This document shows, in pieces, positions 42,950-60,353 of a stretch of 64,000 bases of DNA. The notes below the pieces were generated by a model. The model was not told the DNA's origin, did not search any database, and worked only from the letters and a program-made list of their open reading frames with translations. The translations under genes were made by a program, and so were the position numbers. Position 1 is the first letter of the stretch; each line of letters begins with the position of its first letter. Source of the stretch: Oscillospiraceae bacterium (GTDB taxonomy: Bacteria > Bacillota > Clostridia > Oscillospirales > Ruminococcaceae); contig JAFRUS010000011.1 of the NCBI GenBank assembly GCA_017438745.1, forward strand, positions 1 through 64,000, read 5' to 3'.

Positions 42950-45742
42950 ATGAAATCAAAATACATAAAAATAATGGCAGGAGTTACAGCACTTGCTTTA
43001 TCTTCTGGATTTACAGTTCTTTATGCTGAAAGCAGAAATGACAATGCTGAAACGGAGGATACTTCTGAAGTTCAGCCTCAGACAGAAGAGACTGAAGGAA
43101 CTGAAAACAATGCACTTTCAGCTAGCAGCGGTGATGGAATTACAAAGAATGAAACAGTTTATGTAAATGCTTCTGCAGACGGTAACGCCGAGGATGTTAC
43201 TGTAAGTGACTGGATCTCAAATCCTGATTCACTGCAGATATTGAATGATATGTCCGACCTTACAGATATTGTGAACGTAAAAGGCTCTGAGGCATATTCT
43301 GAGATCGGCAACGCTCTTACATGGCAGGCCGGCGGGTCTGATATCTACTATCAGGGCAAAACAGACCGTGATCTTCCTGTAAAAATGTCTGTTACCTACA
43401 CTCTTGACGGAAACACCATCTCCCCTTCTGAACTTTCAGGAAAGAGCGGCCACGTAACTATTCGTTTTGACTATACCAACCTTGCAAAGAAGACTGTCGA
43501 TGTTGACGGAAAGAAATATACCGTTTCAGTTCCGTTTGCAGCAGTTACAGGACTTGTTCTTGACAGCAGCAAATTCACAAACGTTGAAGCAGTAAACGGC
43601 AAGATCGTTTCTGACGGAAACAGATGTATCGCAGCCGGCGGCGCTTTTCCTGGCCTTAAGGAAAGCCTGGAAACAGGAAATAAGGCAGAAGATCCTTCTA
43701 TCGACACAAGCATGATCAATATACCGGAATATTTTGAAGTATCAGCTGATGTAACAGACTTTTCACTTGAAACATCAATTACTGTAGTTACAAATGAGAT
43801 TTTCAACGAAATAGGAATTGACCCGTCATCTACAGTTGATGAATTAAAGTCAAAGATCGATGAGCTGACAGAAGCTTCACTTAAGCTTAAGAATGGTACA
43901 TCTGATCTTTATGACGGTGTAAGCACACTTCTTGAAAAGTCTGGAGAACTTAAATCAGGTATAGGTAAACTTTCAGACGGTGCTGCAAAGCTTAACGATG
44001 CTGCCGGTCAGATAAATGATGGTGCATCAAAACTTTCTGACGGTGCAGGAAAACTTAATGAAGGCGGAGAAAAGCTTGACGCTGGTATAGGCGAATTTGC
44101 CGACGGAGTTGCATCACTTAAGGAGGGTACTTCAGCTCTTAAGGACGGTGCTGGTTCACTTAAGGAAGGAACAGCTGCTCTCTCAGAAGGTGCTGCATCA
44201 CTTAAAGACGGTACCGCTTCCCTTTCTGCAGGTGCTTCTTCACTTAAAGAAGGAACTGCAGCACTTTCAAACGGCGCATCAGAACTTTCAGGCGGAGCAA
44301 AGACACTCAGTGACGGAACAGTTTCCATCGACAATGGCGTTGAGGATCTCGGTAACGGATTAAACAGCTTAAGTGCCGGATTTATAAAGCTTACATCAAA
44401 TACAGAAGCACTTCTTAACGGTTCTGAAGCTTATTTAAACGGTATTGTTACATTACGTGACGGACTTGCCGAGGTTTCAGCAGATACTTCACAGCTTAAA
44501 GTCCTTGTTGATTCATCATCAGCTATTAAACAGGGCATATCTGATCTTAATGCCGCTGCAGAACAGCTTAAAGCAGCTTCCGGTTCAGATGCCATGAAGA
44601 ACCGCTTTGCTGAAAACGGTCTTGATACAGATACACTTGCGGCTGGCAACGCAGCATGCATAGAAACTCTTGAAACACAGATAGCAACACTTACAACACA
44701 GGCTGACGCACTCGCCGCTGTTGAAGGATGCGAGGAACAGGCTGCTGCTCTTAACGAACAGATAGCATCGCTTACAGGAATAGTTACAGTACTTAAAGGC
44801 GACAGCGCATTTATCGAAGGATCACTTCAATATACAGACGGACTTGGCGAAGCCGCTGCTAAATTAGCCGAAGGCTCTGCTTCACTTAAGGCAAGCTACG
44901 AACAGTTTGATGCTGCTATACAGGCTCTCGCTGAAAAGATCTCAGGAACAACAGAAAACATCTGTAAAATAAAAAATGCCGTAGATCAGCTCGCTGAAAG
45001 CTACGAAAAGGTAAACGGCGGAATAGTAGCCTATACAAACGGCGTAAATGAACTGAATGAAGGCTGCAGCAAGCTTACATCCGGTGTACAGAAACTTAAG
45101 GCTGGTACTACTTCACTTAAGGACGGAGCTGCAAATCTTTCCGCAGGCGCTGATGTTTTAAGCAACGGTGCAAAGAGCGTTGACGAAGGTACAGGTTCAC
45201 TTGCAGAAGGAATCGGTAAAGTTGATTCAGGTGCTGCTTCCCTTGCTGACGGCGCAGCTAAGGCTGATAACGGTGCAGGAGCTCTTCTGAATGGTATTAC
45301 AGAAGCAGATGCAGGAACAGAAAAGCTTAACGAAGGAGCAAAGGAACTTAAAAATGGTTCAGGCTCTCTTATCGGCGGAATCAAGGAACTCTTTGATTCT
45401 CTTAATATCTTCAAGAAAGGCACATCTGATTTCGCTGCCGGTTCTTCAGAGCTTTCAGACGGTATAAACAAAGTGTCAGACGGAACAGGTGCTCTTATCG
45501 ACGGAATCGGCCAGTTACACGACGGTGCATCTGAACTCAATGACGGTATGGCAAAGTTTAATGCAGAAGGCATCGGTAAGATCTCAGATACAGTAAATAA
45601 CGAGATCACTGACTTTACAGACAGACTTAGGGCACTTTCAAAAGCTTCGGAAGAATACACTTCATTCTCCGGAAAATCTGATTCTATGAAGGGCAGCGTA
45701 AAATTTGTAATTGAAACTGACCGTATCGGAACAGATGAATAA
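42950..45742 (+). CDS. Secreted X-X-X-Leu-X-X-Gly heptad-repeat protein
   Basis: 930 residues. Signal peptide about 1-26 (ITALALSS-type core, cut near LYA-ES). Residues about 30-300 are an acidic spacer and a beta-rich domain (VKMSVTYTLDGNTISPSELSGKSGHVTIRFDY). From about 310 to 490 and 690 to 890 run heptads such as SLKEGTA, ALSEGAA, SLKDGTA, characteristic of the heptad family found in YhgE/Pip-like proteins. A helical segment separates the arrays. Unlike YhgE it has no membrane helices after the signal peptide. Co-transcription with the RND transporter suggests it forms an extracellular stalk or adaptor. Confidence 0.85.
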   Translation: MKSKYIKIMAGVTALALSSGFTVLYAESRNDNAETEDTSEVQPQTEETEGTENNALSASSGDGITKNETVYVNASADGNAEDVTVSDWISNPDSLQILNDMSDLTDIVNVKGSEAYSEIGNALTWQAGGSDIYYQGKTDRDLPVKMSVTYTLDGNTISPSELSGKSGHVTIRFDYTNLAKKTVDVDGKKYTVSVPFAAVTGLVLDSSKFTNVEAVNGKIVSDGNRCIAAGGAFPGLKESLETGNKAEDPSIDTSMINIPEYFEVSADVTDFSLETSITVVTNEIFNEIGIDPSSTVDELKSKIDELTEASLKLKNGTSDLYDGVSTLLEKSGELKSGIGKLSDGAAKLNDAAGQINDGASKLSDGAGKLNEGGEKLDAGIGEFADGVASLKEGTSALKDGAGSLKEGTAALSEGAASLKDGTASLSAGASSLKEGTAALSNGASELSGGAKTLSDGTVSIDNGVEDLGNGLNSLSAGFIKLTSNTEALLNGSEAYLNGIVTLRDGLAEVSADTSQLKVLVDSSSAIKQGISDLNAAAEQLKAASGSDAMKNRFAENGLDTDTLAAGNAACIETLETQIATLTTQADALAAVEGCEEQAAALNEQIASLTGIVTVLKGDSAFIEGSLQYTDGLGEAAAKLAEGSASLKASYEQFDAAIQALAEKISGTTENICKIKNAVDQLAESYEKVNGGIVAYTNGVNELNEGCSKLTSGVQKLKAGTTSLKDGAANLSAGADVLSNGAKSVDEGTGSLAEGIGKVDSGAASLADGAAKADNGAGALLNGITEADAGTEKLNEGAKELKNGSGSLIGGIKELFDSLNIFKKGTSDFAAGSSELSDGINKVSDGTGALIDGIGQLHDGASELNDGMAKFNAEGIGKISDTVNNEITDFTDRLRALSKASEEYTSFSGKSDSMKGSVKFVIETDRIGTDE

Positions 45743-45851: not shown

Positions 45852-46838
45852 TCACTGCTGCTGATGTTTCTTTTTTGCGTATTCCTCTATTTTTTCAAGA
45901 GCAACAAGTGTAAGTATCTGCTGTTCAAGACAGCCTGCGTCAGATACTGCCTTTAGCGTACCGGATGTAGCCATTTTTCTGCATGCGCAGGAATTGTCAC
46001 AGTATTTACGTATCTCGCAGCCGTCGCAATCGGACGGATAGGATGAGTATTCCGGATATTTGTCTTTTACCGGTGCAGTGTTCAGGCCGTTAAACACATC
46101 GCCGCACTGATACTCCGCTCTGTTCTGGAACTGGAGACAGGGATAGATCTTTCCGTCCCAGTTGATGTACATTTTCCTTTTGCAAATATCACACTGATGC
46201 GGTTTCTGGTCCGTAATTGCTGTGATCTTGTTTATCATTTCAAGGATAGAGATACCGGAAACCGAAGCTGCTTCACGCCACGCCTTCAGGAGCATGTCTC
46301 CGAATGCATCAGTATCTGCAGGACATGTGCTCTCTTCCAGTACAGCGGATGCTGCAGTGACACCGAGATTGCGGAAATAACGGATGTTATCAGGCAGTTT
46401 CGGAAGAGTCTTTTCTGTATAAACGAGCTGAAGCAGGATCTCACGCTGATATTTCTGCAGTATTCTGATCTTTTCATTGAGCACCTCCGGATCGATACCA
46501 CGTGCTGAAAGATCTGCCCCGTCGTGGGAAACATTGAATTTTACTCCGTGTTCCGAGCACCATTTAATATACTCCTCATCAAGAAGCGTTCCGTTTGTGG
46601 TGATTATATAGCTGTTTGCTTTCGTCTGCAGGGTTATCTTTTTTATGATATCTTTCCCGAGCAAAGGCTCACCGCCGAAAAAGTAAATGGTTCCTGTATT
46701 TGGGATGGAATTAACGAATTCTATAACTGCATCTGTGGTTTTATCGTCAAGCATACCCATCTCCGTGTTGAGTTTTTTCTCGTAGCAGTACTCGCAGTGC
46801 AGGTTGCAGCGGTTAGTTATACTTATATAGTAGTCCAT
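45852..46838 (-). CDS. Radical SAM protein with SPASM-type C-terminal cluster domain
   Basis: 328 residues from ATG 46838. A GTG eight codons upstream is in frame, but AAAGGAG lies 9 bases before 46838. Radical SAM motif CNLHCEYCYEKK at the N-terminus, then IYFFGGEPLLGKD and the strand YIITTNGTLLDEE. The C-terminus binds auxiliary clusters: CDICKRKMYINWDGKIYPCLQF and CDGCEIRKYCDNSCACRK. Such enzymes mature peptides or sulfatases. No sulfatase is near and no clear precursor peptide was found, apart from a doubtful 18-residue ORF just upstream. Confidence 0.9.
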   Translation of the reverse strand: MDYYISITNRCNLHCEYCYEKKLNTEMGMLDDKTTDAVIEFVNSIPNTGTIYFFGGEPLLGKDIIKKITLQTKANSYIITTNGTLLDEEYIKWCSEHGVKFNVSHDGADLSARGIDPEVLNEKIRILQKYQREILLQLVYTEKTLPKLPDNIRYFRNLGVTAASAVLEESTCPADTDAFGDMLLKAWREAASVSGISILEMINKITAITDQKPHQCDICKRKMYINWDGKIYPCLQFQNRAEYQCGDVFNGLNTAPVKDKYPEYSSYPSDCDGCEIRKYCDNSCACRKMATSGTLKAVSDAGCLEQQILTLVALEKIEEYAKKKHQQQ

Positions 46839-46877
46839 GTTTTTCTTCTCCTTTGCAAACACTGAAATGAATACAGA

Positions 46878-49059: not shown

Positions 49060-49098
49060 AAAACCGACATCTGATCAAGTCTGCCAGATGTCGGTTTT
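49060..49098. terminator. Terminator between ygiQ and the lipid operon
   Basis: AAAACCGACATCTG and CAGATGTCGGTTTT, perfect 14-bp stem, 11-base loop. T4 on either strand; it can serve both converging units. Confidence 0.8.
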
Positions 49099-49151: not shown

Positions 49152-50216
49152 TTACAGTTCCTTTTCAAAAAGAACGTATTCCCTCTTTTTCAGCACTTTG
49201 GAATCGATATATTTTTCAGTTACCTTGCCTTTTTTTATAAGCGCACCGACGGATGAAGCCTTTTTACGGCACAGTTCCTTGAATATTACCTGTGAAATGG
49301 CAGAACCGAGCCCCAGATGATTCCCGTCAACGCCCATATAAAGGAGCACGTAGTTATCGCTTCTAAACCTGTTTTTCAGTAGGAATAATATATCTGAAAT
49401 GCCTATATTCCCGTAAAGCCTGTTTCCGTAATCAGGAACGCAGATAAGGAACCCGACAAGCTTATCGTTCTTATAGCCAAGCTTGACCATTGAAAAGTCC
49501 AGAACTGATTTCAGGTCCTTGTACATTTCACGAAATTCTTCTTCTGTGATATACGAAAACACAGGGAAATCACTGTAGAGCTCCATTATCAGATGATAGA
49601 CCTCGCCGATAATAACATCCCAGTTCTTCTTTTCTGCGGATACTATGCGGTAACCCTTCTTCATCAGAAAATCATAACGCTTTTTGTACTTTTCATCGTC
49701 AGCTTCTGATTTATCAACCTTCTTATAAATGTTGGAAATATACGTACCGGATACCTCATATCCGTTTTCCTTCCAGAGTTCCGGATAATATGAAACACCA
49801 TACGGTTCGGAGAAATATCTGTGTTCGTCAAAACAGTCGTTCTTCATTCTGTATCCGATCCAGAAACTTGCGTCTACAGGACCGGTAAGCTTAATAATTC
49901 CTTGTGAACAGGCATATTCTTCAGCTGCGTTCATAAGAGCCTTTACGGCTTCACGGTCGTTTTCACTGTCAAAGAATCCTAAATATGCCTCGTTCTTGTC
50001 GTTGTATATCGTAATAGCACAGCGTGAAACCGGCTTGCCATCGAGGTAACAGACAAATGCTGTAAAGGAGAAATATTGGCTTAATGTATGCGTGCCTTTT
50101 AAAAGCTGTTCCTCGTCAGAACGCTTCTGCATAAGATCTTTCTTTTCATAAATATCCACCGGAAGCGTAAGAAAATCCTCGTATTCACTTTCGGTGACCT
50201 TTATTACTTTATACAT
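49152..50216 (-). CDS. GNAT-like acyltransferase, last gene of the lipid operon
   Basis: 354 residues. Features of a two-part GNAT protein: an N-terminal half with SRCAITIYNDKNEAYLGFFDSEND and ALMNAAEEYACSQGIIKLTGPVD, and a C-terminal half with KLVGFLICVPDYG and YMGVDGNHLGLGSAISQVIFKELC resembling an acyl-CoA pyrophosphate loop. It shares one base with the preceding phosphotransferase gene. In this setting it may acylate the headgroup amine or a backbone hydroxyl; that is inference. Confidence 0.65.
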   Translation of the reverse strand: MYKVIKVTESEYEDFLTLPVDIYEKKDLMQKRSDEEQLLKGTHTLSQYFSFTAFVCYLDGKPVSRCAITIYNDKNEAYLGFFDSENDREAVKALMNAAEEYACSQGIIKLTGPVDASFWIGYRMKNDCFDEHRYFSEPYGVSYYPELWKENGYEVSGTYISNIYKKVDKSEADDEKYKKRYDFLMKKGYRIVSAEKKNWDVIIGEVYHLIMELYSDFPVFSYITEEEFREMYKDLKSVLDFSMVKLGYKNDKLVGFLICVPDYGNRLYGNIGISDILFLLKNRFRSDNYVLLYMGVDGNHLGLGSAISQVIFKELCRKKASSVGALIKKGKVTEKYIDSKVLKKREYVLFEKEL

Positions 50217-52603
50217 TACTTTTCCTTTCTGCAGATTGTTACAGTACCGCTGTTTCCGTCAAGTTCAATGATATCGCCGTCTTTTATGATCTCCGATGCA
50301 TCTTTTACGCCTACAACTGCAGGTATTTTAAGTTCCCTTGAAATGATGGCCGTATGGGAAAGAAGTGAACCCTTCTCGCTGATTATTCCTGCAGAATTTG
50401 AGAGCATGAACACCCATCCCGGATCGGTCATTTTAGCGACAATGATCTTCCCTTTTGTTTCAGGCGGATTACATGCGTCTCTTACAACCACTGCTTCCGC
50501 TTTTGCTATTCCAGCCGATGATGCAGTACCATACAGAACGTTTGTATCTGACGATACCGAAGATGCATGAACTCTGCTGAGTTTTTTCCTGTCAAATTCA
50601 TTATGCTCGAAAACCAGTCTCGAAAAAGCCGGAAGATCATAAAAGCCTGTATAATCCTGCTTTCTCTGGTTTATTAAGCTACTGAAAGTATCCTCGTTTC
50701 CATCAAATATCTCGTCTCTTGTAAGATAAAATACGTCACGTATCGCATCAATACTGCCGTTTTCGAAAAATATTTCTCCTGCACGAATAAACATCGATCT
50801 TACCATACCATAGATCCTTGTACGGTTAAGTCTCGATATTTCGCGGTTCATGATACCTGTTGCTGCCTTGGATGCGAAATACCTGATCATTTTCCTTCGG
50901 CTTTTTATATCTGAAAGAATACTGTCCGTATCTTTTTGCGTATCATTAAGAAGAGAGGATTTTGTTTTCCTGAAAATCTCCTCATCCGATGAAAGATCAG
51001 CGATTTTCTTTATCAGAAGCAGCGGACTTTCCCTGAAAGTAACTGTTTCAAGTTTTAATTCTTCAGGCGAACGGTCACCGTAAAGGTTTATATATTCATA
51101 AAACTTTTCCTTGAATGGGACATGATCTTCAAGTTTTTCTTTCAGTTCTTTTTCGGTTTGACAGGCGCTTAAACTTTCAAGAGCTTTCCGGTCATAGTCA
51201 GCCAGTTTTAACATAGCTTTTACCGGCTTCATGCTTTCAATATTTGATATTCCGCTTATAAAATCATTTACCTTTTTCTCAGGATCAGCTGCTCCTGTTT
51301 TCTTTATTTCCGATTTCAGAAGTCCGGTGAATACAAAAGCATACAGGTCGTTAAGAAGGGTAATATCCCAGCCGGAAAGCACTTTATCCGATATTTCAGA
51401 ATACAGTTTCTTTATCTCTTCAAGACTGATGTCAGAAGTAAAGTGTTCTCTGAAATACTTTTCAGTAGCGGGAAAAGATTCATTAAGCTTTTCCATATTC
51501 TTTCTTACTGAGAATGCTTCCGAGATCACGTTAAAGTATGTAGCTATTCGTTTTACCGGTGTAAGATTTACCTTTCCTCTGCTTATCGCCTTGTCGGCAA
51601 CGCCCATCATATCCTGCCATACAGGGATTATCTTTCCCGAAAGCGGCAGAAAAGATAGAACAGTGTACCAGTTGCTGATCTTGTAATAGATCCTTCCGTT
51701 AGCAGCTCCGGTCATGTTGTAGTAGGTCTCATTGTAGTGTTCCACCATATCAGGGTCATGAAGTACACGCCCTGCAAGGCCTTTAAAAACGCCGCTGTAG
51801 GCTTCTTTTACGAAGGATACAGTCAGAGGCAGCGAAATACCCGGATAGCTTTCGACTATGTTGCTGTTGTCAAGAATAAGCGGAGATCTGACATCTACGG
51901 TCGTTATCGGTCTTGCCTGAAGAACATAAACTTCCCCGTTTTTTACGGCAAATTCGATATCGATATATTTTCCGAAAATCTTTTCAGCCTTTTCGCAGAG
52001 TGAAACCAGTTCTTCGGCTTTCTCTGATTCCAGCTCAGGCGCATTATCACTGCAGCTTTCGGTAAAATATTTTCTGTCGTTCCGATTATAGTAACAGGTG
52101 GTAACGTCCGTCTTTTCCTCAACTACATTATCACCGGTTCCCTTTCCTGCGACAATGACTGTTTCATTAAGTATCCCCTGCGGATTTGCGGAAAAGATAA
52201 CTCCCGAGCAGTCGGCATTCACCATTCTCTGAACTATAACAGTCATTTTTATATCGTCTGCATTGATCCCGTTTTCCCTGCAGTAAGAAATAACGCTTTC
52301 CTTCTTTGCAGAAAGAAAGCATTCATTTATTTTTTTAGTGATATCTTCCTGGCTTACATTCAGAAAAGTATCAAACTGTCCGGCAAAGGAAAAACCGTCC
52401 GAATCTTCGCAGAAAGCAGCAGATCTTACCGAACAGGTGTTCCATCCTTCTGTTAATGAGGATATTTCATCATAGTCCGGAACTTCATTTACACAGAAAA
52501 AATCAGGAACATTAAATCCGTTATCCTTAAGGATGAATAGTCTCTGAGCTTTCGCACCGATCTTGTGATCCTTGTAGTTTTCAGAAGTAATAACTGTAAT
52601 CAT
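50216..52603 (-). CDS. PEP-synthase-like phosphotransferase 2 (ATP-grasp plus swivelling His domain)
   Basis: 795 residues. The N-terminal ATP-grasp half (1-235) has SVRSAAFCEDSDGFSFAGQFDTFLNV and VYVLQARPITTV. The middle (about 240-690) is helix-rich and specific. The C-terminal phosphohistidine domain contains GWVFMLSNSAGIISEKGSLLSHTAIISRELKIPAV with the phosphorylatable His at 750. The PEP/pyruvate-binding barrel of true PEP synthase is absent, giving the layout of rifampin-phosphotransferase-type enzymes that phosphorylate a hydroxyl of an organic substrate. It overlaps the UbiA gene by 4 bases. Substrate unknown, probably a lipid alcohol from context. Confidence 0.85.
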   Translation of the reverse strand: MITVITSENYKDHKIGAKAQRLFILKDNGFNVPDFFCVNEVPDYDEISSLTEGWNTCSVRSAAFCEDSDGFSFAGQFDTFLNVSQEDITKKINECFLSAKKESVISYCRENGINADDIKMTVIVQRMVNADCSGVIFSANPQGILNETVIVAGKGTGDNVVEEKTDVTTCYYNRNDRKYFTESCSDNAPELESEKAEELVSLCEKAEKIFGKYIDIEFAVKNGEVYVLQARPITTVDVRSPLILDNSNIVESYPGISLPLTVSFVKEAYSGVFKGLAGRVLHDPDMVEHYNETYYNMTGAANGRIYYKISNWYTVLSFLPLSGKIIPVWQDMMGVADKAISRGKVNLTPVKRIATYFNVISEAFSVRKNMEKLNESFPATEKYFREHFTSDISLEEIKKLYSEISDKVLSGWDITLLNDLYAFVFTGLLKSEIKKTGAADPEKKVNDFISGISNIESMKPVKAMLKLADYDRKALESLSACQTEKELKEKLEDHVPFKEKFYEYINLYGDRSPEELKLETVTFRESPLLLIKKIADLSSDEEIFRKTKSSLLNDTQKDTDSILSDIKSRRKMIRYFASKAATGIMNREISRLNRTRIYGMVRSMFIRAGEIFFENGSIDAIRDVFYLTRDEIFDGNEDTFSSLINQRKQDYTGFYDLPAFSRLVFEHNEFDRKKLSRVHASSVSSDTNVLYGTASSAGIAKAEAVVVRDACNPPETKGKIIVAKMTDPGWVFMLSNSAGIISEKGSLLSHTAIISRELKIPAVVGVKDASEIIKDGDIIELDGNSGTVTICRKEK

Positions 52604-53499
52604 ATTTTTCCCCAGATCATGTATGCAGGAATGATAAGCAGCATTGTTGCTTCCTGAATGTAAGTGTAGATCTCGACTCTTGAAACAAGCTTGAAGCGTT
52701 CAGGATTCCTGATAAACATGAGAAATTCAATAGTCATGATAATTACATTCACAAGAAGGATGTAGAAACCTATCATGTTAAGATTGATTACCAGAATGAA
52801 ATTGGTAATAATATCGGCGATGGTAAGTATAAGTACGAACCAGGTAGCTTTCTTGTAGCCGAAAAGCTTTGAGTATGTCGTGTATTCTGTTTCATCCTTC
52901 GGAGCGCGTATTTTACGGGAAACTTCCCAGATAAGTGCTGGAAAGTAGAGTGTCATAAGCACTAAGAAAGAAGTAAGGGTAAAAGGCTGAAGGTGATACT
53001 TGATGCAGCAGAAAGATATGATGTAAAGATTGAGCACCATCTGTACCGGATTGTGTGTAACGAGTGCCAGCGGAAGGCTTTTGCTTATCTTGTGTTTCTG
53101 GAAAAACCACAGCGACATGAGAAGACCATATGCCATGAGGAAAAGGTAGAAAAAGATGTTGTTCATGAAAACTACATTCAGAATAGTGATAATTCCAAGA
53201 TCAACTGCGACCGCAGTGTTTAAGTCTTTCTTAAGTACCTTTCCGCTTGGAAATGCTCTGTCCGGAAAGAGTCTTTTATCGGTCTCGTAATCCTTGAAGT
53301 CGTCGGCTATACGTAAAAACATAAGAAATCCGAAAACTGTAAGTGATCCGACTACCTCCTGAATTCCAAGTTTAAAGTCTGTAATTCCGTAGTTTAAAAG
53401 CAGAATGAAATATATCTCACCGAATACGATAAATCCGAGCAGCAGTCTCGGAAAAAACGGATACATTTCTTTGTAATATACACCAAGCCTTTTAAGCAT
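52600..53499 (-). CDS. UbiA-family prenyltransferase
   Basis: 299 residues, about eight to nine membrane helices. The first Asp-rich motif reads RIADDFKDYETDKRLFPDRAFPSGKV, close to the pattern in archaeal ether-lipid and chlorophyll-type UbiA enzymes. The second is in WEVSRKIRAPKDETEYTTYSKLFGYKKA. These bind a prenyl diphosphate via magnesium. Overlaps psd by 8 bases. The acceptor is unknown; the phospholipid genes around it point to a lipid backbone or headgroup. Confidence 0.85.
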   Translation of the reverse strand: MLKRLGVYYKEMYPFFPRLLLGFIVFGEIYFILLLNYGITDFKLGIQEVVGSLTVFGFLMFLRIADDFKDYETDKRLFPDRAFPSGKVLKKDLNTAVAVDLGIITILNVVFMNNIFFYLFLMAYGLLMSLWFFQKHKISKSLPLALVTHNPVQMVLNLYIISFCCIKYHLQPFTLTSFLVLMTLYFPALIWEVSRKIRAPKDETEYTTYSKLFGYKKATWFVLILTIADIITNFILVINLNMIGFYILLVNVIIMTIEFLMFIRNPERFKLVSRVEIYTYIQEATMLLIIPAYMIWGKI

Positions 53500-54361
53500 T
53501 TTTTCTCCCTATCCTTTCTCCCATCAATACTTTTGTTTCTGTACCATTTGCAGAATTTTCAAGTATATCTTCATCAATGATCGCAGCGCCCTTTTTTAGC
53601 ATTACCACGCAGGTGGAACCGCCCATTTCAAAATATCCTTTTTCGTCGCCGCGTTCAAATATCTTTACGTCCTTATTATTTATCTTTCCGACTAACAATG
53701 CACCTATTTCCACCTGATAGCATTCACCGAAATATTCAGTTTCAATAAGCGAAACACTGCGGCAGTTTTCGGCAAATACCTTGTATCTCCTGGCAGATAT
53801 CGGACTTACTGTATGAAGCCGGCCTTCAATGTACTTCTCACGGATCAGCCTGCCCTTGTCAAAGAAACTGTAATGATGATAGTCATCTACCGTTAATCTG
53901 AAAACCAGACAGTCGCCGCCGTAAAAGTCATCCGAAAGTTCTTCGCCAATGATTTCAGAAGCTGTGTAGATGCTGTTTTTTATATTTATCTTTCCGTCCT
54001 CAGTTATCTTATAGCACAGAAGCTTGCTGTCGGCTACCGCACAAAGATCATCAGGATCTAAGCTGAAAGGTCTGCGTCCTTCCTTTATATTTCGTGTAAA
54101 GAAGTCGGCAAAGGATGAGTACTCACGGTCTTCGAAATCATCAAGGTTTATGCCGTATTCCTTAACAAAAGGAGCTATCTTCTCCTTTGACTTTTCCGTA
54201 GAGTTTTTCCTTGCATTGTATCTTGAATAACCCTTTCCGGCAATGAAAAGCTTTAAAATGATCCTTCCGATGATATTTCCGTAAAGAAATTTCAGTGCAT
54301 TTCCGCCGTACTGTTTATCCTCGTAAAAAGTTTTGTTTTTTCTGTCGTATATCTTCCCCAT
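53492..54361 (-). CDS. psd: Phosphatidylserine decarboxylase
   Basis: 289 residues, the clostridial type. It decarboxylates a phosphatidylserine-like lipid to the ethanolamine form. Visible: ADSKLLCYKI, FRLTVDDYHHYSFFDKG (catalytic His region), HTVSPI, and the self-cleavage site FEMGGSTCVVML, where GGST replaces the common LGST and yields the pyruvoyl serine. It lies 50 bases after the phosphatidyltransferase gene. Confidence 0.92.
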   Translation of the reverse strand: MGKIYDRKNKTFYEDKQYGGNALKFLYGNIIGRIILKLFIAGKGYSRYNARKNSTEKSKEKIAPFVKEYGINLDDFEDREYSSFADFFTRNIKEGRRPFSLDPDDLCAVADSKLLCYKITEDGKINIKNSIYTASEIIGEELSDDFYGGDCLVFRLTVDDYHHYSFFDKGRLIREKYIEGRLHTVSPISARRYKVFAENCRSVSLIETEYFGECYQVEIGALLVGKINNKDVKIFERGDEKGYFEMGGSTCVVMLKKGAAIIDEDILENSANGTETKVLMGERIGRKNA

Positions 54362-54411
54362 ATTATTTCCTTTATGATCTTCCGGTAAAAGAAAAGCTTA
54401 ATTTTCTTTCA

Positions 54412-55014
54412 CTATATCAGCGCTACAATTACGGTAAGTGCTATCGCAAGCAGTCCGAGAAATATATATGTCTTTCCATGCGGCTTTGCTATCTTTATCT
54501 TCAGAATGAAAAGCAGTCCGGTTACCAGAAGCACTGCCGGCATTATCACACTGAAAAGACCGGTGAGTTTTCCGATAATATAGGCGCCTACGACAATCAG
54601 AGAAGCGAATGTTGCCGGAAGTCCTGTGTAGAACTTGGTTTCAGCCCCCACTGAAGTGGAAACATTGAAGTATCCAAGCCTAGTAATACACGCAATTACA
54701 TAAAAAGCACTTATCAGAGTAGAAATAACTCCTGTATTTCCTACAGCATATGAAATAACCGGAGGAAACAGCGCAAAACTGGCCATATCAGTAAGTGAAT
54801 CTATCTGAATGCCGAACTCTTTTTCCTCATCTGTACGCTTGCAGCGTCTTGCTATCATACCGTCAAAAAGATCGGCAACTCCGCAGAATATAAGGCAAAG
54901 TACTGCAGCTTTGATTTTTCCGGAACAGGCAAGGCCCATTCCTGCGACAGCAGCAGCAGCCCCGGCATAAGTGAGAATTACTGATTTATTGTAATAACCT
55001 AAAAAGCACTTCAT
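54412..55014 (-). CDS. pssA: CDP-alcohol phosphatidyltransferase (phosphatidylserine synthase type)
   Basis: 200 residues, about six membrane helices. The CDP-alcohol phosphotransferase motif is complete: ADLFDGMIARRCKRTDEEKEFGIQIDSLTDMASF, that is D-G-x2-A-R-x-G-x3-D-x3-D. The neighbouring decarboxylase makes serine the likely acceptor. It follows the phosphotransferase 1 gene with no gap. Confidence 0.9.
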   Translation of the reverse strand: MKCFLGYYNKSVILTYAGAAAAVAGMGLACSGKIKAAVLCLIFCGVADLFDGMIARRCKRTDEEKEFGIQIDSLTDMASFALFPPVISYAVGNTGVISTLISAFYVIACITRLGYFNVSTSVGAETKFYTGLPATFASLIVVGAYIIGKLTGLFSVIMPAVLLVTGLLFILKIKIAKPHGKTYIFLGLLAIALTVIVALI

Positions 55015-57516
55015 TTATTCACCGCCCGGAATTATCTCGCCTGTTTCGCCGTTGATGGTGATACGGTCGCCGTCCTTTATAAGCTTTGTGGCATTTTCAG
55101 CGCAGACAACGCATGGTATGCCATATTCTCTTGAAACGATGGCAGCGTGGCAGAGAATTCCGCCGAATTCGGTAACAATACCGCTGAGCATTGCAAACTT
55201 GCCTGTCCAGCCCGTATCAGTGAATTTTGTGATAAGAATATCGCCTTCACGGAGTCTGTCAGTTTCGTCAAGTGAGTGAATAACTCTCGCAATTCCTGTA
55301 GCCTTGAAACATGAGCATCCGATACCGCTGAGACCCTTTTCAGTGCTCTTTTCTGTTTCAGCTCCAAAGGATGAACCGATCTCGTTTTCATTTTTGAAAT
55401 GTCTGAATGAAGCGTAGTAGACCTTATTCCTTTCGATGATTCTCTTGAGTTCATCGGTATCGGTCTTTCCGTCTAAAAAGCTTCTGACGTCTTCTATCTT
55501 TGTAAACCAGATATCGTTTCTGTCTGAGATAACGCCGTCGCTGTAAAGTGCTTCAGCAAGTCTCATGGTATATGCTCTGATTATGCAGTAGAATCTTGTG
55601 GATACGTCTCTGAATTCCTCGCGCCACCAGAGCATCTTTCTCATATCGTTTACATTCTTTTCGACCTTTTTGTAAGCTGAAGCAGATGTCTTTTCACGTA
55701 TCTTTTCCATTTCCTTTTTGAAATCTTCAGCAAGTCGCCTGGAATCAGCTTCCGGTGAGCATTCATCGCCTAATTCGCAGGTGTTCTTAAGGTCGTTTAC
55801 TACCTCCGGAATATCCTCATAGAATGAAGGATAAGTTACGTCCAGCTCCTTCTTTGAATGATAACCGAACTTCAGAACATAGTTCTTTACCATTTCGCCG
55901 TATGGCACTTCTTCAAGATTTTCGACTATCTCGGCTGCAGATTTGTTTTTCCAGAATTCATAAGCCTTTTCGTCGTTTCTTATTGCACGGCTTATGTTCC
56001 ACATTTCATAGAACGGAAGCAGATGTGAGATATTGTCAAGACCGCCTATCAGCGTGAAATAGCCGCCCTGTGTTGTATGTTTAAGGATCTTGTCCTTGTA
56101 CAGTGACTGATGGATCATATTAATAAATATCTGTCTGAAATAAGTACTTTCGCTGTAAAGATAATCGTCGAAAATAAGCTTTTTCCATTTGGTTCTTATT
56201 TCATCAGAAGTATATTCGTCGTCCTTTTCAGCAAAGTATGCGTTATATTTCGACATAAGGTCGTCCTTAAGTCTCTGGGCGTTCTTGCGGCGTTCCTTTA
56301 CGATTTTTTTCTGCTGTATCGCCATTACGAGGATACCGAAGATAGTCTTAGGGTTTATGGAAGTTGTCTGTCCGTCTCCCTCGTAAGTGATCTTTACACC
56401 AAGCTCGCTGTCAAAGTCACGTTCCTTGTAGCCAGGTACTTTCGCCATTGCAGCCTTGGCAGCGCTTAAATTCCAGTAAGGTCTGCCAAAATACATTTCA
56501 CCGAGCTTTTTATCGAGTTCTTTAGGTTTCAGAATTTTCGATTCGATAAGGAATTTTCTGAATTCACTTTCCCAGATATATTCGTAAAGACTCCACATGT
56601 ACGGAGTGCAGACAGTGGCTGAAACACCGCCGTCCTTGAAGTCAGCTGTTGTCCATTGATCCTTTATGCCGCTGTAGATGATCTTTGTAATGGCACGGGC
56701 CTGAAGTACGTAAAGTTCATCTTTTTCCATAGCAAATTCGATGTCACACGGATAGCCGAAGAACTGCTGTATTTTAAGTGCTGTACATGCAATCTCACGT
56801 ATTTTGTCTTCTGAAAGCAGTTTGCCTGATGAAGATGTGATCTTTTTATTCCACCAGTCATATGAGTAGCTTTCAGCTGCAACCTTACCGCTTACAAGGT
56901 TTTCGCCCTGTCCTTCAGTAACTTCAATAACGATCTCCTTGTCGTTGCCTGTCATAGGATTAACGGTAAAAGCAACGCCGCTTATTTCGGAGTTTACCAT
57001 TTCCTCAATGATAACTGCCATTCCCGAACCATCGTATTTAAGGCCGTTTACTGCAAGATATGATAAAACAGTCTCTGAAAATCCTGAAAGCCAGCATTTA
57101 ATAACGGCATCAGAAATATCGTCTATACCGCTTACGTTGATGAACGTATCGTACTGTCCTGCAAATGAGAAACCTTCAAGGTCTTCCTTGATACCGCTGC
57201 TTCGTACAGCATATTTCTTATCAGGTGAAATAAACTTTTCAATTTCTGCCCTTACCACATCAAAAAGTTTAAGGTCAGAATACAGTTCCTTTATATATCC
57301 TGAAGTTTCAGCAGCGTTGTCTATTGTAAGTGAGTTTAAAAGTTTGTCTGCTTCAGCTTTGTGAATGCTTGCTGAAATAGTATCAAAAAATATCTGTTTA
57401 CCGAGAACGATACCGTCCGGAACATTGAATCCGTTTCTTTTCATTTTTGAAAGAAACGCGGCTTTATTTCCTGTTTCCTCTTTATCAAGACGAACCCCGA
57501 GATCATAAATATTCAT
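55015..57516 (-). CDS. PEP-synthase-like phosphotransferase 1
   Basis: 833 residues from the ATG at 57516. A GTG six codons earlier is in frame, but AAAGGA nine bases before 57516 favours the ATG. Same architecture as its operon partner: ATP-grasp half with AVRSSGIKEDLEGFSFAGQYDTFINV and LYVLQARAITKI, a distinct helical middle (about 270-680), and a swivelling domain with GKFAMLSGIVTEFGGILCHAAIVSREYGIPCV (His near 790). No PEP/pyruvate barrel. The two middle domains differ markedly, so the two enzymes likely act on different hydroxyl substrates or steps. Confidence 0.85.
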   Translation of the reverse strand: MNIYDLGVRLDKEETGNKAAFLSKMKRNGFNVPDGIVLGKQIFFDTISASIHKAEADKLLNSLTIDNAAETSGYIKELYSDLKLFDVVRAEIEKFISPDKKYAVRSSGIKEDLEGFSFAGQYDTFINVSGIDDISDAVIKCWLSGFSETVLSYLAVNGLKYDGSGMAVIIEEMVNSEISGVAFTVNPMTGNDKEIVIEVTEGQGENLVSGKVAAESYSYDWWNKKITSSSGKLLSEDKIREIACTALKIQQFFGYPCDIEFAMEKDELYVLQARAITKIIYSGIKDQWTTADFKDGGVSATVCTPYMWSLYEYIWESEFRKFLIESKILKPKELDKKLGEMYFGRPYWNLSAAKAAMAKVPGYKERDFDSELGVKITYEGDGQTTSINPKTIFGILVMAIQQKKIVKERRKNAQRLKDDLMSKYNAYFAEKDDEYTSDEIRTKWKKLIFDDYLYSESTYFRQIFINMIHQSLYKDKILKHTTQGGYFTLIGGLDNISHLLPFYEMWNISRAIRNDEKAYEFWKNKSAAEIVENLEEVPYGEMVKNYVLKFGYHSKKELDVTYPSFYEDIPEVVNDLKNTCELGDECSPEADSRRLAEDFKKEMEKIREKTSASAYKKVEKNVNDMRKMLWWREEFRDVSTRFYCIIRAYTMRLAEALYSDGVISDRNDIWFTKIEDVRSFLDGKTDTDELKRIIERNKVYYASFRHFKNENEIGSSFGAETEKSTEKGLSGIGCSCFKATGIARVIHSLDETDRLREGDILITKFTDTGWTGKFAMLSGIVTEFGGILCHAAIVSREYGIPCVVCAENATKLIKDGDRITINGETGEIIPGGE

Positions 57517-57582
57517 TATGAATTTTCCTTTCACTAAAACATATTAATCAGTTTACTGATCCGATCTGATCAGCGTGTTTGC

Positions 57583-58176
57583 TTAAAACATATTCTTACG
57601 TAAGTGGCAGAAGTAAAGAAGCATATTCAGAATAATATGAGTACCTGCACCTACAATTACATATAAAAAATAAAACCATACCGGCAGCGGACAGAACAGA
57701 CAGACGACCAGTACGCATCCGAAAATGGAGTCAGCCTGATCGATGAATACGAAAAACGCTCTTTTCGCACCGCTTATATCGTTCTTGCCCGGAGTAATGC
57801 CGATCCTTCTTTTCATGAAACTGTTCGGAAGTTCGAACAAAGCGTAGGCAAAACCGATAAGCGTACCTGTCAGCACGTTGTAAGGTATGGTATTATCGTA
57901 ATTTCTGTAAAAATAATTATGTTCTGCGGCAAATGTACCCGGTCTGCTTAAAAGTCCCCATATGACAGTGAAAACAATTCCGAAAAATATCATTCCGACG
58001 AATCCTTTGAAGGTCTTGTTTTCTCCGAAGATTCTTCGTCCGTCGGTGAAATTTTTTCCGAAGTCCACCGGCTTTTTAAGGAAGTCGCAGACACTGATCT
58101 TGCACCAGACCATATTCAGAATTCCTGCCAGAATGACAGGAAGTAAAGTTATATACATTTCCGCTAATTTCATCAT
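57583..58176 (-). CDS. CDP-archaeol synthase-like membrane cytidylyltransferase
   Basis: 197 residues, five or so membrane helices. The sequence DGRRIFGENKTFKGFVGMIFFGIVF matches the CarS/DUF46 signature (FG-x-N-K-T-x-x-G), and ISGAKRAFFVFIDQADSIFGCVL provides the conserved D-x-x-D/S region. Family members in archaea activate an unsaturated ether-lipid phosphate with CTP. It is first in the operon, behind a consensus promoter. A bacterial substrate other than archaeal lipid is possible. Confidence 0.82.
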   Translation of the reverse strand: MMKLAEMYITLLPVILAGILNMVWCKISVCDFLKKPVDFGKNFTDGRRIFGENKTFKGFVGMIFFGIVFTVIWGLLSRPGTFAAEHNYFYRNYDNTIPYNVLTGTLIGFAYALFELPNSFMKRRIGITPGKNDISGAKRAFFVFIDQADSIFGCVLVVCLFCPLPVWFYFLYVIVGAGTHIILNMLLYFCHLRKNMF

Positions 58177-58212
58177 TTTTTATCTATCCTTAATACTGAA
58201 AATTCATAATTA

Positions 58213-58241
58213 ATTATATCACAGTAAAGCGCGAAATTCAA
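58213..58241 (-). promoter_or_regulatory. Promoter of the lipid operon
   Basis: On the minus strand TTGAAT (58236-58241), 17-base spacer, TATAAT (58213-58218). Only about 35 bases of leader separate it from the first gene. Confidence 0.75.
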
Positions 58242-58347
58242 TATTTTTTTAACTATCATTCCAATAATTTTAGTGAGCACTGGTCAATTATTATCTGTTT
58301 ATTTTATGCCTGGTTTTAGTGAGAGTTATTCTTAAATCAGAATAAGA

Positions 58348-58378
58348 AAACGGATCTGCATTATTCACAGATCCGTTT
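58348..58378 (-). terminator. Terminator of the two-component operon
   Basis: AAACGGATCTG and CAGATCCGTTT, perfect 11-bp stem with 9-base loop, then TTTTCTT on the minus strand, just past the kinase stop codon. Confidence 0.8.
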
Positions 58379-58389
58379 CAGGATAAGCA

Positions 58390-59664
58390 TTATTTCGTTT
58401 TTATAAGCACCGAAAATCTGCCGTCCTTTAAGTCAATATTCATTTTGAATTTATGAGCCCTCACTATATTTGAAACTATAGCAAGGCCTACGCCGCTTCC
58501 CTTTCGTCCTGAACGGTCGCTTGTGCCGCGGACAAACGGTTCGCTGAGTTTGTTTATATCCGTTTCTATTTTTCCTGTAAAATCATTGGTAACGGAAAAA
58601 CTTTTCGGTTCGAAGTTGATATCTATTTTTCCGTAATCGTCCGTATATTTGATCGCATTGGTAATAAGGTTTTCCAGAAGCTGATTCATCATTCTCGGGT
58701 CTGCCTTTATTACAGAATCACCGTTTATCGTTATCGTAATACCACGTTCAGCCGCAGGAACTTCGTACATTTTACATATTCCTTCTGCCATAGGACGAAG
58801 TTCGAATTTCTTAAATTCAGGTTTTTGACAGTCATTTTCGGATCTTGAAAGTTCCAGTGCGTCGTTTATTATCTTCTCAGCATATTTCGAGTTTTCAATA
58901 ATAGCCTCTTCATAGAATTCACGCTTTTCCGGATCAACATTCTCCTTAAGGTTTTCAGCGCAGCCTGACATAATTGTAAGCGGAGTCTTAAGGTCGTGGG
59001 ACAGGCTGTTTATTACTGACCTTTTATACTCGTCCTTAAAATCAATCTTCTCCTTCCGGAAAGTAAGAACGAGCGAAGCAGATAAGGCTGAAAAAAAAAG
59101 AATCAGATCAACCGGGAAAATATACTTGAAAAAGTACATGTAGTAATTTACTTTCATTACTGTATAAATAATTACATTTTTTCCGTTAACATTTCTGTAT
59201 GAACCAGTATAATTCGTCATGCCGAAAAGATTGCCTTCTTCCGTGTTATCAATTTTTGAAAGTGTATTTATGACTCCAAGCTTTTTGTTAAAGTCTTCTT
59301 TATATTTTTCAGAGTCTGCAAGATATGAACTCAATGTTTTGTTATCTGGTAAAGTCATTTCGTTGCAGGCTATGATCTCTTTGCTTATGATGTCAAGTAC
59401 AAGTGCTGTTTTTTCTAATCCTGAATGACCGTAGTCATATCCCGGATACCAAAGTGTAAATGCAAGATCGTAGTCGCCGTCATATTCAAGCTGTTCCGCA
59501 AGATTATTGTGAGCTATAGCATCATTTGATCTGAAATACGGTATCTTGAATTTAAGAAAAGCACCGTAAATCACGCAGTGAGCAATAAAAGCAACAAGAA
59601 ACGGAATGATAAGCCGTTTGAAAAATATCTTTCCTGTACGCTCCTTCTGATATCGTCCTTCCAT
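58390..59664 (-). CDS. Sensor histidine kinase
   Basis: 424 residues. Two membrane helices (about 15-38 and 178-200) bound an extracellular sensor of about 140 residues. Cytoplasmic kinase: H-box SLSHDLKTPLTIMSG, N-box LLENLITNAIKYTDD, and G-boxes GTSDRSGRKGSGVGLAIV. It follows the regulator gene by 11 bases. The signal cannot be read from sequence. Confidence 0.94.
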   Translation of the reverse strand: MEGRYQKERTGKIFFKRLIIPFLVAFIAHCVIYGAFLKFKIPYFRSNDAIAHNNLAEQLEYDGDYDLAFTLWYPGYDYGHSGLEKTALVLDIISKEIIACNEMTLPDNKTLSSYLADSEKYKEDFNKKLGVINTLSKIDNTEEGNLFGMTNYTGSYRNVNGKNVIIYTVMKVNYYMYFFKYIFPVDLILFFSALSASLVLTFRKEKIDFKDEYKRSVINSLSHDLKTPLTIMSGCAENLKENVDPEKREFYEEAIIENSKYAEKIINDALELSRSENDCQKPEFKKFELRPMAEGICKMYEVPAAERGITITINGDSVIKADPRMMNQLLENLITNAIKYTDDYGKIDINFEPKSFSVTNDFTGKIETDINKLSEPFVRGTSDRSGRKGSGVGLAIVSNIVRAHKFKMNIDLKDGRFSVLIKTK

Positions 59665-59675
59665 ATTTGTTCTCC

Positions 59676-60353
59676 TTAATCCGTGATTTTATAACCTTTA
59701 CCGATTATTGTTTTTATCTGTCTGCCGGATGTACCCAGAGCTTTTCTTAATTTTCTTATATGATTGTCAACAATACGGTCATTTCCGAAGAAATCTCGTC
59801 CCCACACAACGTCCAGCATCATATCACGGCTGATAAGATTGCCTTTGTTCTTTATCAGATAACGAAGGATCTCAAATTCCTTAAGTGCCAGTGCTACTTC
59901 TTCCCCGTCTGCATATGCCTGATGTGACAGCAGATTCAGCATGATTCTGCCGCAGGTAAGTTCATTTTTCACCACATTTCCGGATGCTCTTTTCAGCAGT
60001 GCATTGCTTTTGGCAAACAGTTCTGCCATGGAAAACGGCTTGGTAACATAATCGTCGCAGCCGATATCGTAGCCGAAAAGCTTGTCTTCTTCTCTTGTTC
60101 TCGCAGTAATGAAAATTACAGGGACGCTGCTTTTCTCTCTGAGTGTTCTGCACACTGAAAACCCGTCAATATCCGGAAGCATCACATCAAGCAGGATAAG
60201 GTCGTATGTATTTTCGTTTATCATCTCCACAGCAGTTATCCCGTCCTCTGCCCTGGATATCTTCATCTGACCTTCGCTTTTCGAAACAAAATAATCCTCC
60301 GTCATCTGCCCGATAACCGGATCGTCTTCAACTATAAGAACTCTGTGCTCCAT
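59676..60353 (-). CDS. OmpR-family response regulator
   Basis: 225 residues. Receiver domain with phospho-acceptor Asp in LILLDVMLPDIDGFSVC (about residue 55), Thr/Lys of the switch in FITARTREEDK and DDYVTKPFSMAELFAK. C-terminal winged helix with LKEFEILRYLIKNKGNLISRDMMLDVVWG and NDRIVDNHIRKLRKALG. A near-perfect AGGAGGTG Shine-Dalgarno precedes the ATG. Confidence 0.95.
   Translation of the reverse strand: MEHRVLIVEDDPVIGQMTEDYFVSKSEGQMKISRAEDGITAVEMINENTYDLILLDVMLPDIDGFSVCRTLREKSSVPVIFITARTREEDKLFGYDIGCDDYVTKPFSMAELFAKSNALLKRASGNVVKNELTCGRIMLNLLSHQAYADGEEVALALKEFEILRYLIKNKGNLISRDMMLDVVWGRDFFGNDRIVDNHIRKLRKALGTSGRQIKTIIGKGYKITD

Follow-up and report, generated by a model that had tools for sequence, protein, structure and literature searches.

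Archaeal phospholipids are made by a pathway in which DGGGP synthase forms a prenyl-glycerol ether and CarS favours prenylated substrates over phosphatidic acid, the opposite of the preference of CdsA (PMC9385802). The bacterial CdsA-PssA-Psd route to phosphatidylethanolamine (PE) runs through CTP activation, serine transfer and decarboxylation, and among the betaine-lipid synthases, which are annotated as DUF3419, BtaA converts diacylglycerol and S-adenosylmethionine into diacylglycerol-O-homoserine (PMC10685587). Archaeal-type lipid enzymes are also found within bacteria of the FCB group, which rely on GGGP and DGGGP synthases without CarS (PMC7852524). Here we describe a seven-gene operon in the first 64,000 nucleotides (the window) of contig JAFRUS010000011.1 from an Oscillospiraceae bacterium (assembly GCA_017438745.1), a Ruminococcus-like Firmicute of the gut or rumen. 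It is a real and conserved lipid pathway, so far undescribed in the literature searched, where we found no publication on an operon or pathway combining these families, and its product is predicted to be a non-standard aminophospholipid.

The operon appears to have the same four families in the same logical order as the archaeal pathway, and the best matches of its UbiA-superfamily prenyltransferase, its CarS-like protein and its serine transferase are archaeal-type. However, it has no GGGP synthase, motif 3 of its UbiA is replaced, a kinase stands before CarS, the host is a member of the Firmicutes, and the system adds phosphotransferases, a GNAT acyltransferase and, in many relatives, an AMP-forming acyl ligase. 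From the CdsA-PssA-Psd route, with which it shares the three head-group steps, it differs in its CarS-type activation (a separate CdsA is encoded in the genome), in a dedicated putative lipid kinase and in the tie to a core of UbiA and a second phosphotransferase. Unlike the FCB group, it has CarS and lacks GGGP synthase. In a sister cluster this core is coupled to an enzyme of the BtaA family, whereas the window contains no such gene and its predicted head-group route goes via a CDP-lipid. The features of the operon are as follows.

58213..58241, minus strand: TG-extended promoter, TTGAAT-17 nt-TATAAT (motif scan and location in an intergenic gap)
57583..58176, minus strand: CarS-like CTP transferase (PF01864, NCBIfam and PDB matches, CTP-transferase motif)
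55015..57534, minus strand: PPS1, rifampin-phosphotransferase-like enzyme of dikinase type, predicted lipid-alcohol kinase (PPDK_N and PEP-utilizers domains, swivel His, mutual exclusivity with DgkA)
54412..55014, minus strand: CDP-alcohol phosphatidyltransferase, predicted to attach serine (phosphatidylserine/archaetidylserine-synthase type; PF01066, catalytic motif)
53492..54361, minus strand: phosphatidylserine-decarboxylase family enzyme (PSD), predicted to form phosphoethanolamine (PF02666, GGST motif)
52600..53499, minus strand: UbiA-superfamily prenyltransferase, core of the putative lipid-alcohol module (NCBIfam PRK13592, profile and fold against 6m31)
50216..52603, minus strand: PPS2, second rifampin-phosphotransferase-like enzyme (domain matches, swivel His, constant company of UbiA)
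49152..50216, minus strand: tandem GNAT acyltransferase (weak Pfam match and fold)
~49060-49098, minus strand: intrinsic terminator hairpin at the operon end, common to the convergent gene (hairpin energy)

The preliminary description of this DNA had proposed seven genes under one promoter, most of them overlapping or abutting, and this layout was confirmed: seven minus-strand open reading frames lie at 49152-58176 in the order it gave. PPS2 and GNAT overlap by 1 base, UbiA and PPS2 by 4 and PSD and UbiA by 8, the PPS1 and CDP-alcohol phosphatidyltransferase genes abut, and two gaps of ~50 bases are left (CarS/PPS1 and CDP-alcohol phosphatidyltransferase/PSD). Judging from the sequence, PPS1 probably starts at ATG 57516 rather than at GTG 57534. 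The promoter scores 10/12, joint best among 25 matches (21.8 were expected by chance), and is the sole 10/12 match with a TG extension; it is credible because it is placed in the intergenic gap, not from its score alone. The bounding terminators are the bidirectional hairpin at the operon end (16 pairs, -25.4 kcal/mol, z -7.9) and a second strong one at 58347-58379, which terminates the upstream histidine-kinase gene. All seven family names hold by Pfam or NCBIfam, with one correction, namely that the UbiA protein is too divergent for Pfam (no match) and is recognised through NCBIfam PRK13592 (1.2e-126) and its fold.

A total of 329 UbiA relatives were found in species-level genomes. The loci compared here are the best 80 of these 329, so that the frequencies given hold for close relatives; the locus counts are of non-independent events and the UbiA tree is a quick one. 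According to record titles, the 80 loci span Oscillospiraceae, Lachnospiraceae, Clostridiaceae, Eubacteriaceae, Filifactoraceae and Carnobacteriaceae. The order CarS-PPS1-CDP-alcohol phosphatidyltransferase-PSD-UbiA-PPS2-GNAT is kept in most of the PPS1-bearing loci, and since gene order is kept in dozens of loci, a chance arrangement is excluded. Conservation thus extends well outside the strain and across many families, which supports the earlier proposal of a single pathway. Within the genus the distribution is patchy (2/11 genomes), the UbiA gene being present, at 95% identity, in one of the ten other genomes (L038, labelled uncultured Ruminococcus). In a set of 391 genomes drawn evenly across the class, true orthologues (54-100% identity) occur in seven, with distant ones in a few more.

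Within the head-group part, the CarS protein matches PF01864 with an E value of 1.2e-18 against 0.013 for PF01148 (CdsA). Its best NCBIfam match is the archaeal CDP-(geranylgeranyl)glycerol synthase (76.9 of the 148 bits needed for the equivalog cut-off), its sole PDB match is the CDP-archaeol synthase 5guf, and the CTP-transferase motif is kept in the family. When 38 genomes were searched, CarS gave one strong match in each of the 22 genomes with an operon CarS, none in 12 of the 13 core-only genomes (in the thirteenth, a weak match of CdsA length) and none in the three BtaA-type genomes searched, which gave no PSD match either. The CDP-alcohol phosphatidyltransferase (PF01066) scores 85.6 bits for the NCBIfam archaetidylserine synthase and 75.8 bits for pssA, both under the cut-off, and the catalytic motif is kept in its family. 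The PSD (PF02666, 8e-46) belongs to a family that keeps the GGST self-cleavage motif (the pyruvoyl-forming G(G/S)ST). Four genomes have a PSD additional to the operon copy, and a tree separates operon PSDs from 14 non-operon PSDs by one branch with weak support (39). In several Ruminococcus loci (L040, L045, L085, L087-L090, L103) the cluster is DgkA-CarS-UbiA-PPS2-GNAT, without serine transferase or decarboxylase, and a PSD lies elsewhere in the genome. An apparent fusion of the CDP-alcohol phosphatidyltransferase with PSD in L046 was rejected, as it corresponds to a run of N.

PPS1 and PPS2 carry PPDK_N and PEP-utilizers domains (Pfam), that is, the ATP-grasp and C-terminal swivel His domains that define the fold family, and the swivelling catalytic His is kept in both; PEP-utilizers_C (PF02896), the PEP-binding C-terminal domain, was found in neither at E 0.1. 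The nearest solved relatives of PPS1 are 5hv1-3 and 5fbs, entries with PDB names that read PEP synthase but which we take to be rifampin phosphotransferases (RPH), and PPS2 is likewise closest to rifampin phosphotransferases. The architecture is alike (ATP-grasp, middle domain, C-terminal swivelling His domain), but the operon enzymes are linked to lipid genes and PPS1 is replaceable by DgkA. Their RPH equivalog scores are 288 and 192, far from the cut-off of 999 bits, and their substrate is almost certainly not rifampin. From its domain content, PEP synthase appears to be the wrong database name for this group; the names attached to PPS2 (PEP synthase) and to other members (NCBIfam NF004882, NF010118 and PF11899-type genes) seem wrong or empty.

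The company of the two phosphotransferases points to different roles. In other species a small DgkA-type kinase (PF01219) sits just upstream of CarS, and among the 73 CarS-bearing loci the kinase beside CarS is PPS1 in 38 and DgkA-type in 35, with no locus having both or neither. These states require at least three switches on the UbiA tree, which indicates repeated replacement. The simplest reading of this pattern is that PPS1 and DgkA share one job, the phosphorylation of a lipid alcohol that CarS would then activate. PPS2, on the contrary, accompanies UbiA wherever the ends of the locus are intact, so that PPS1 would be a replaceable lipid kinase and PPS2 a partner travelling with UbiA.

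The UbiA protein has a membrane all-helical fold, with the Asp-rich motif 1 (DDxxDxxxD) and the RPxPSG element kept. Its profile gave one significant match among solved proteins, the archaeal DGGGP synthase 6m31 (7e-5), and its predicted structure (pLDDT 88.6), compared with archaeal enzymes as had been suggested, is nearest to DGGGP synthase (Z 19.2 and 18.4 versus 16.8 for the next match). Motif 3, with the register taken from sequence, reads ExxRKxxAPxxE throughout the family, including a deep branch, and not DxxDxxxD; in DGGGP synthase this motif comprises D180, D183 and D187 (PMC9385802). The model of the GNAT (pLDDT 92) matches tandem GNATs (Z ~20), and an AMP-forming acyl ligase adjoins the GNAT in 41 loci. 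UbiA and PPS2 stay paired even where all else is missing, for instance in [Eubacterium] yurii (L075), usually have the GNAT and often the ligase beside them, and this core occurs without CarS too.

Nine further loci of related orders combine UbiA of the deeper branch (23-27% identity) with PPS2-, GNAT- and ligase-type genes, a DUF3419 protein and a membrane protein of ~445 residues, the gene order being kept in 8/9. Since the substrate of BtaA is diacylglycerol, the core product in these clusters should be a free, diglyceride-like alcohol; and a core able to feed either the CDP-ethanolamine or the BtaA route has to end in a free lipid alcohol, our main reason for placing UbiA, PPS2 and GNAT before head-group attachment. 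The ~445-residue protein lies beside the BtaA-family gene (L024 14145-15479, L025 13187-14518, L137 3727-5067 and others) and had no match in Pfam, NCBIfam, PHROGs or PDB, nor by profile comparison with CarS; a resemblance to dolichol/phytol kinases (RKxxHxxMG, ADSxAAxxG and KSxEGS motifs) was seen by eye only and, as it was not confirmed, we dropped this assignment. Several species of a single genus have the deep-branch UbiA as two overlapping frames of ~90 and ~270 codons, broken at the same place (L025 9587-10583, L148 7544-8540, G589, G600). The gene is whole in their relatives, and the junction sequence differs; a frameshift, decay or a two-piece gene are the candidates.

The host genome (3.77 Mb, estimated 100% complete) encodes a separate CdsA (PF01148, 5e-54) on another contig. 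Two CDP-alcohol phosphatidyltransferases are present; the one outside the operon, by far the better match to the family, is presumably PgsA. Neither a PSD outside the operon nor a second PssA-like gene was found in this genome, so that of the separate CdsA, PssA and Psd copies considered earlier only CdsA is there, which does not refute the proposed pathway. With CdsA and the presumed PgsA outside the operon, ordinary phosphatidylglycerol could be made without it, and any lipid of the phosphatidylserine or PE type depends on the operon. A DgkA-type kinase was not found in the host genome either, nor was GGGP synthase (PcrB, PF01884), for which only fragments below or near the threshold, none reliable, were seen in 5/28 genomes. 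As a test for sn-glycerol-1-phosphate dehydrogenase, the profile PF13685 is uninformative: in each of the 14 genomes searched it matches numerous iron alcohol dehydrogenases.

We give about even chances to a pathway dedicated to making a non-standard aminophospholipid, in which a core module builds a lipid alcohol and a head-group module caps it. UbiA and PPS2 would prenylate a glycerol-like acceptor, and acylation would fall to the tandem GNAT (joined by the acyl ligase in many relatives); prenyl-acyl-glycerol is our best guess for the resulting alcohol. PPS2 most likely supplies a phosphorylated donor or intermediate used by UbiA: because the head-group phosphate comes from PPS1 or DgkA, its phosphate is probably consumed by the UbiA reaction, the simplest case being that it is the leaving group of the prenyl donor, and the basic motif 3 of UbiA would suit an altered donor. 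PPS1 (elsewhere a DgkA-type kinase) would then phosphorylate the lipid alcohol, CarS convert it to a CDP-lipid, the phosphatidylserine-synthase-like enzyme attach serine and PSD decarboxylate the serine lipid to a phosphoethanolamine lipid.

This head-group sequence is the one put forward in the preliminary description and is supported by the interchange of PPS1 and DgkA beside CarS. Its suggestion that the lipid is probably built on something other than ordinary phosphatidic acid also gained support, since CarS is found only in genomes that carry it in the operon, although CdsA is present too; with CdsA available for the ordinary lipid, the substrate of CarS most likely has another backbone, and the archaeal-type preference may apply to this enzyme. 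Prenylation and acylation, on the other hand, had been placed last, and as the core persists without head-group genes and pairs with the BtaA family they most likely come first. Comparison between loci thus supports the sequence of steps and a non-standard backbone well. What we observed directly are the families, their kept catalytic residues, the gene order, the exclusivity of PPS1 and DgkA, the confinement of CarS to the operon and the core with alternative head modules; we infer every substrate, the prenyl and acyl groups of the backbone and the role of PPS2. A more detailed version, which we regard as rather doubtful, is that PPS2 phosphorylates a prenol (perhaps dietary, such as phytol) to a prenyl monophosphate donor for the UbiA with basic motif 3, which would yield hybrid prenyl/acyl glycerolipids without GGGP synthase, capped with phosphoethanolamine or, by the BtaA family, with homoserine.

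Several points weigh against the dedicated pathway. The enzyme activities and the lipid product are predictions from the genes. The prenyl preference of archaeal CarS cannot be assumed, as no archaeal equivalog cut-off is reached, and two or three aspartates normally present in motif 3 are missing from UbiA, which makes its donor and acceptor uncertain. The BtaA-linked UbiA is just 23-27% identical and may do something else, and the operon in the window has no acyl ligase. DgkA enzymes act on ordinary diacylglycerol or undecaprenol, and the operon is the sole source of phosphatidylserine and PE enzymes in this genome, so that ordinary PE could be its whole product.

An unlikely explanation that builds on these last two points is that kinase, CarS, phosphatidylserine synthase and PSD recycle diacylglycerol to diacyl-PE, and that UbiA, PPS2 and GNAT are devoted to some unrelated, prenylated metabolite. 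It would account for the genome having no PSD or PssA-like gene outside the operon, for the classical diacylglycerol kinases to which the DgkA-type enzymes correspond and for the UbiA-PPS2 pairs that occur without any head-group gene. Yet CarS would be redundant beside CdsA, and it was never found without this core and always has its own kinase; in addition, four genomes keep a further PSD beside the operon copy, and operon PSDs are separable, weakly, from the others.

More improbable still, in our view, is that the lipid alcohol is a polyprenol. The resulting polyprenyl-phospho-serine or -ethanolamine would serve envelope decoration as a carrier or donor, and UbiA would work in the manner of the polyprenyl-phosphate phosphoribosyltransferases of its superfamily. 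One of these (8j8j) is a good fold match (Z 16.2), motif 3 of UbiA is unusual, and Firmicute DgkA enzymes often act on undecaprenol. DGGGP synthase is nevertheless the better match in both profile and fold, the coupling to the BtaA family suggests a diglyceride-like alcohol, and cell-wall genes are not among the conserved neighbours of the operon in the loci compared. A true archaetidylethanolamine, with two prenyl ethers on glycerol-1-phosphate and UbiA as DGGGP synthase, is very unlikely. Four consecutive steps do look archaeal, with a UbiA that is nearest DGGGP synthase, a CarS, a serine transferase most similar to archaetidylserine synthase and the decarboxylase. We rejected this plain archaeal ether-lipid pathway because PcrB/GGGP synthase is absent from the host genome and not reliably found in the 27 others searched; in addition, the GNAT and acyl ligase would have no place, motif 3 of UbiA differs, and a separate kinase would be needless if UbiA delivered DGGGP.

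If the dedicated pathway is true, many gut and rumen Firmicutes make an unreported class of membrane lipid by archaeal-type chemistry in bacteria, which bears on the 'lipid divide', on the lipids that gut bacteria present to the host, and on what a large dikinase-type group, now mislabelled as PEP synthases, does in the cell. The exchange of PPS1 for DgkA provides a direct substrate hypothesis for this orphan enzyme family.

Regarding the surroundings, the operon has a GC content of 40.7% against 41.2% for the window, and its base composition bears no mark of recent transfer. Directly upstream on the same strand, with the strong terminator in between, lie a histidine kinase and a response regulator (58390-60353), which are not kept beside the operon at other loci. 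A 930-residue protein at 42950-45742 has a signal-like N-terminus and a long near-repeat run (LKDGTASLSAGASSLKEG...) of the kind seen in YhgE/Pip-like membrane proteins, and a radical-SAM protein with a cysteine-rich, SPASM-like C-terminus, resembling peptide-modifying enzymes, is encoded at 45852-46862.

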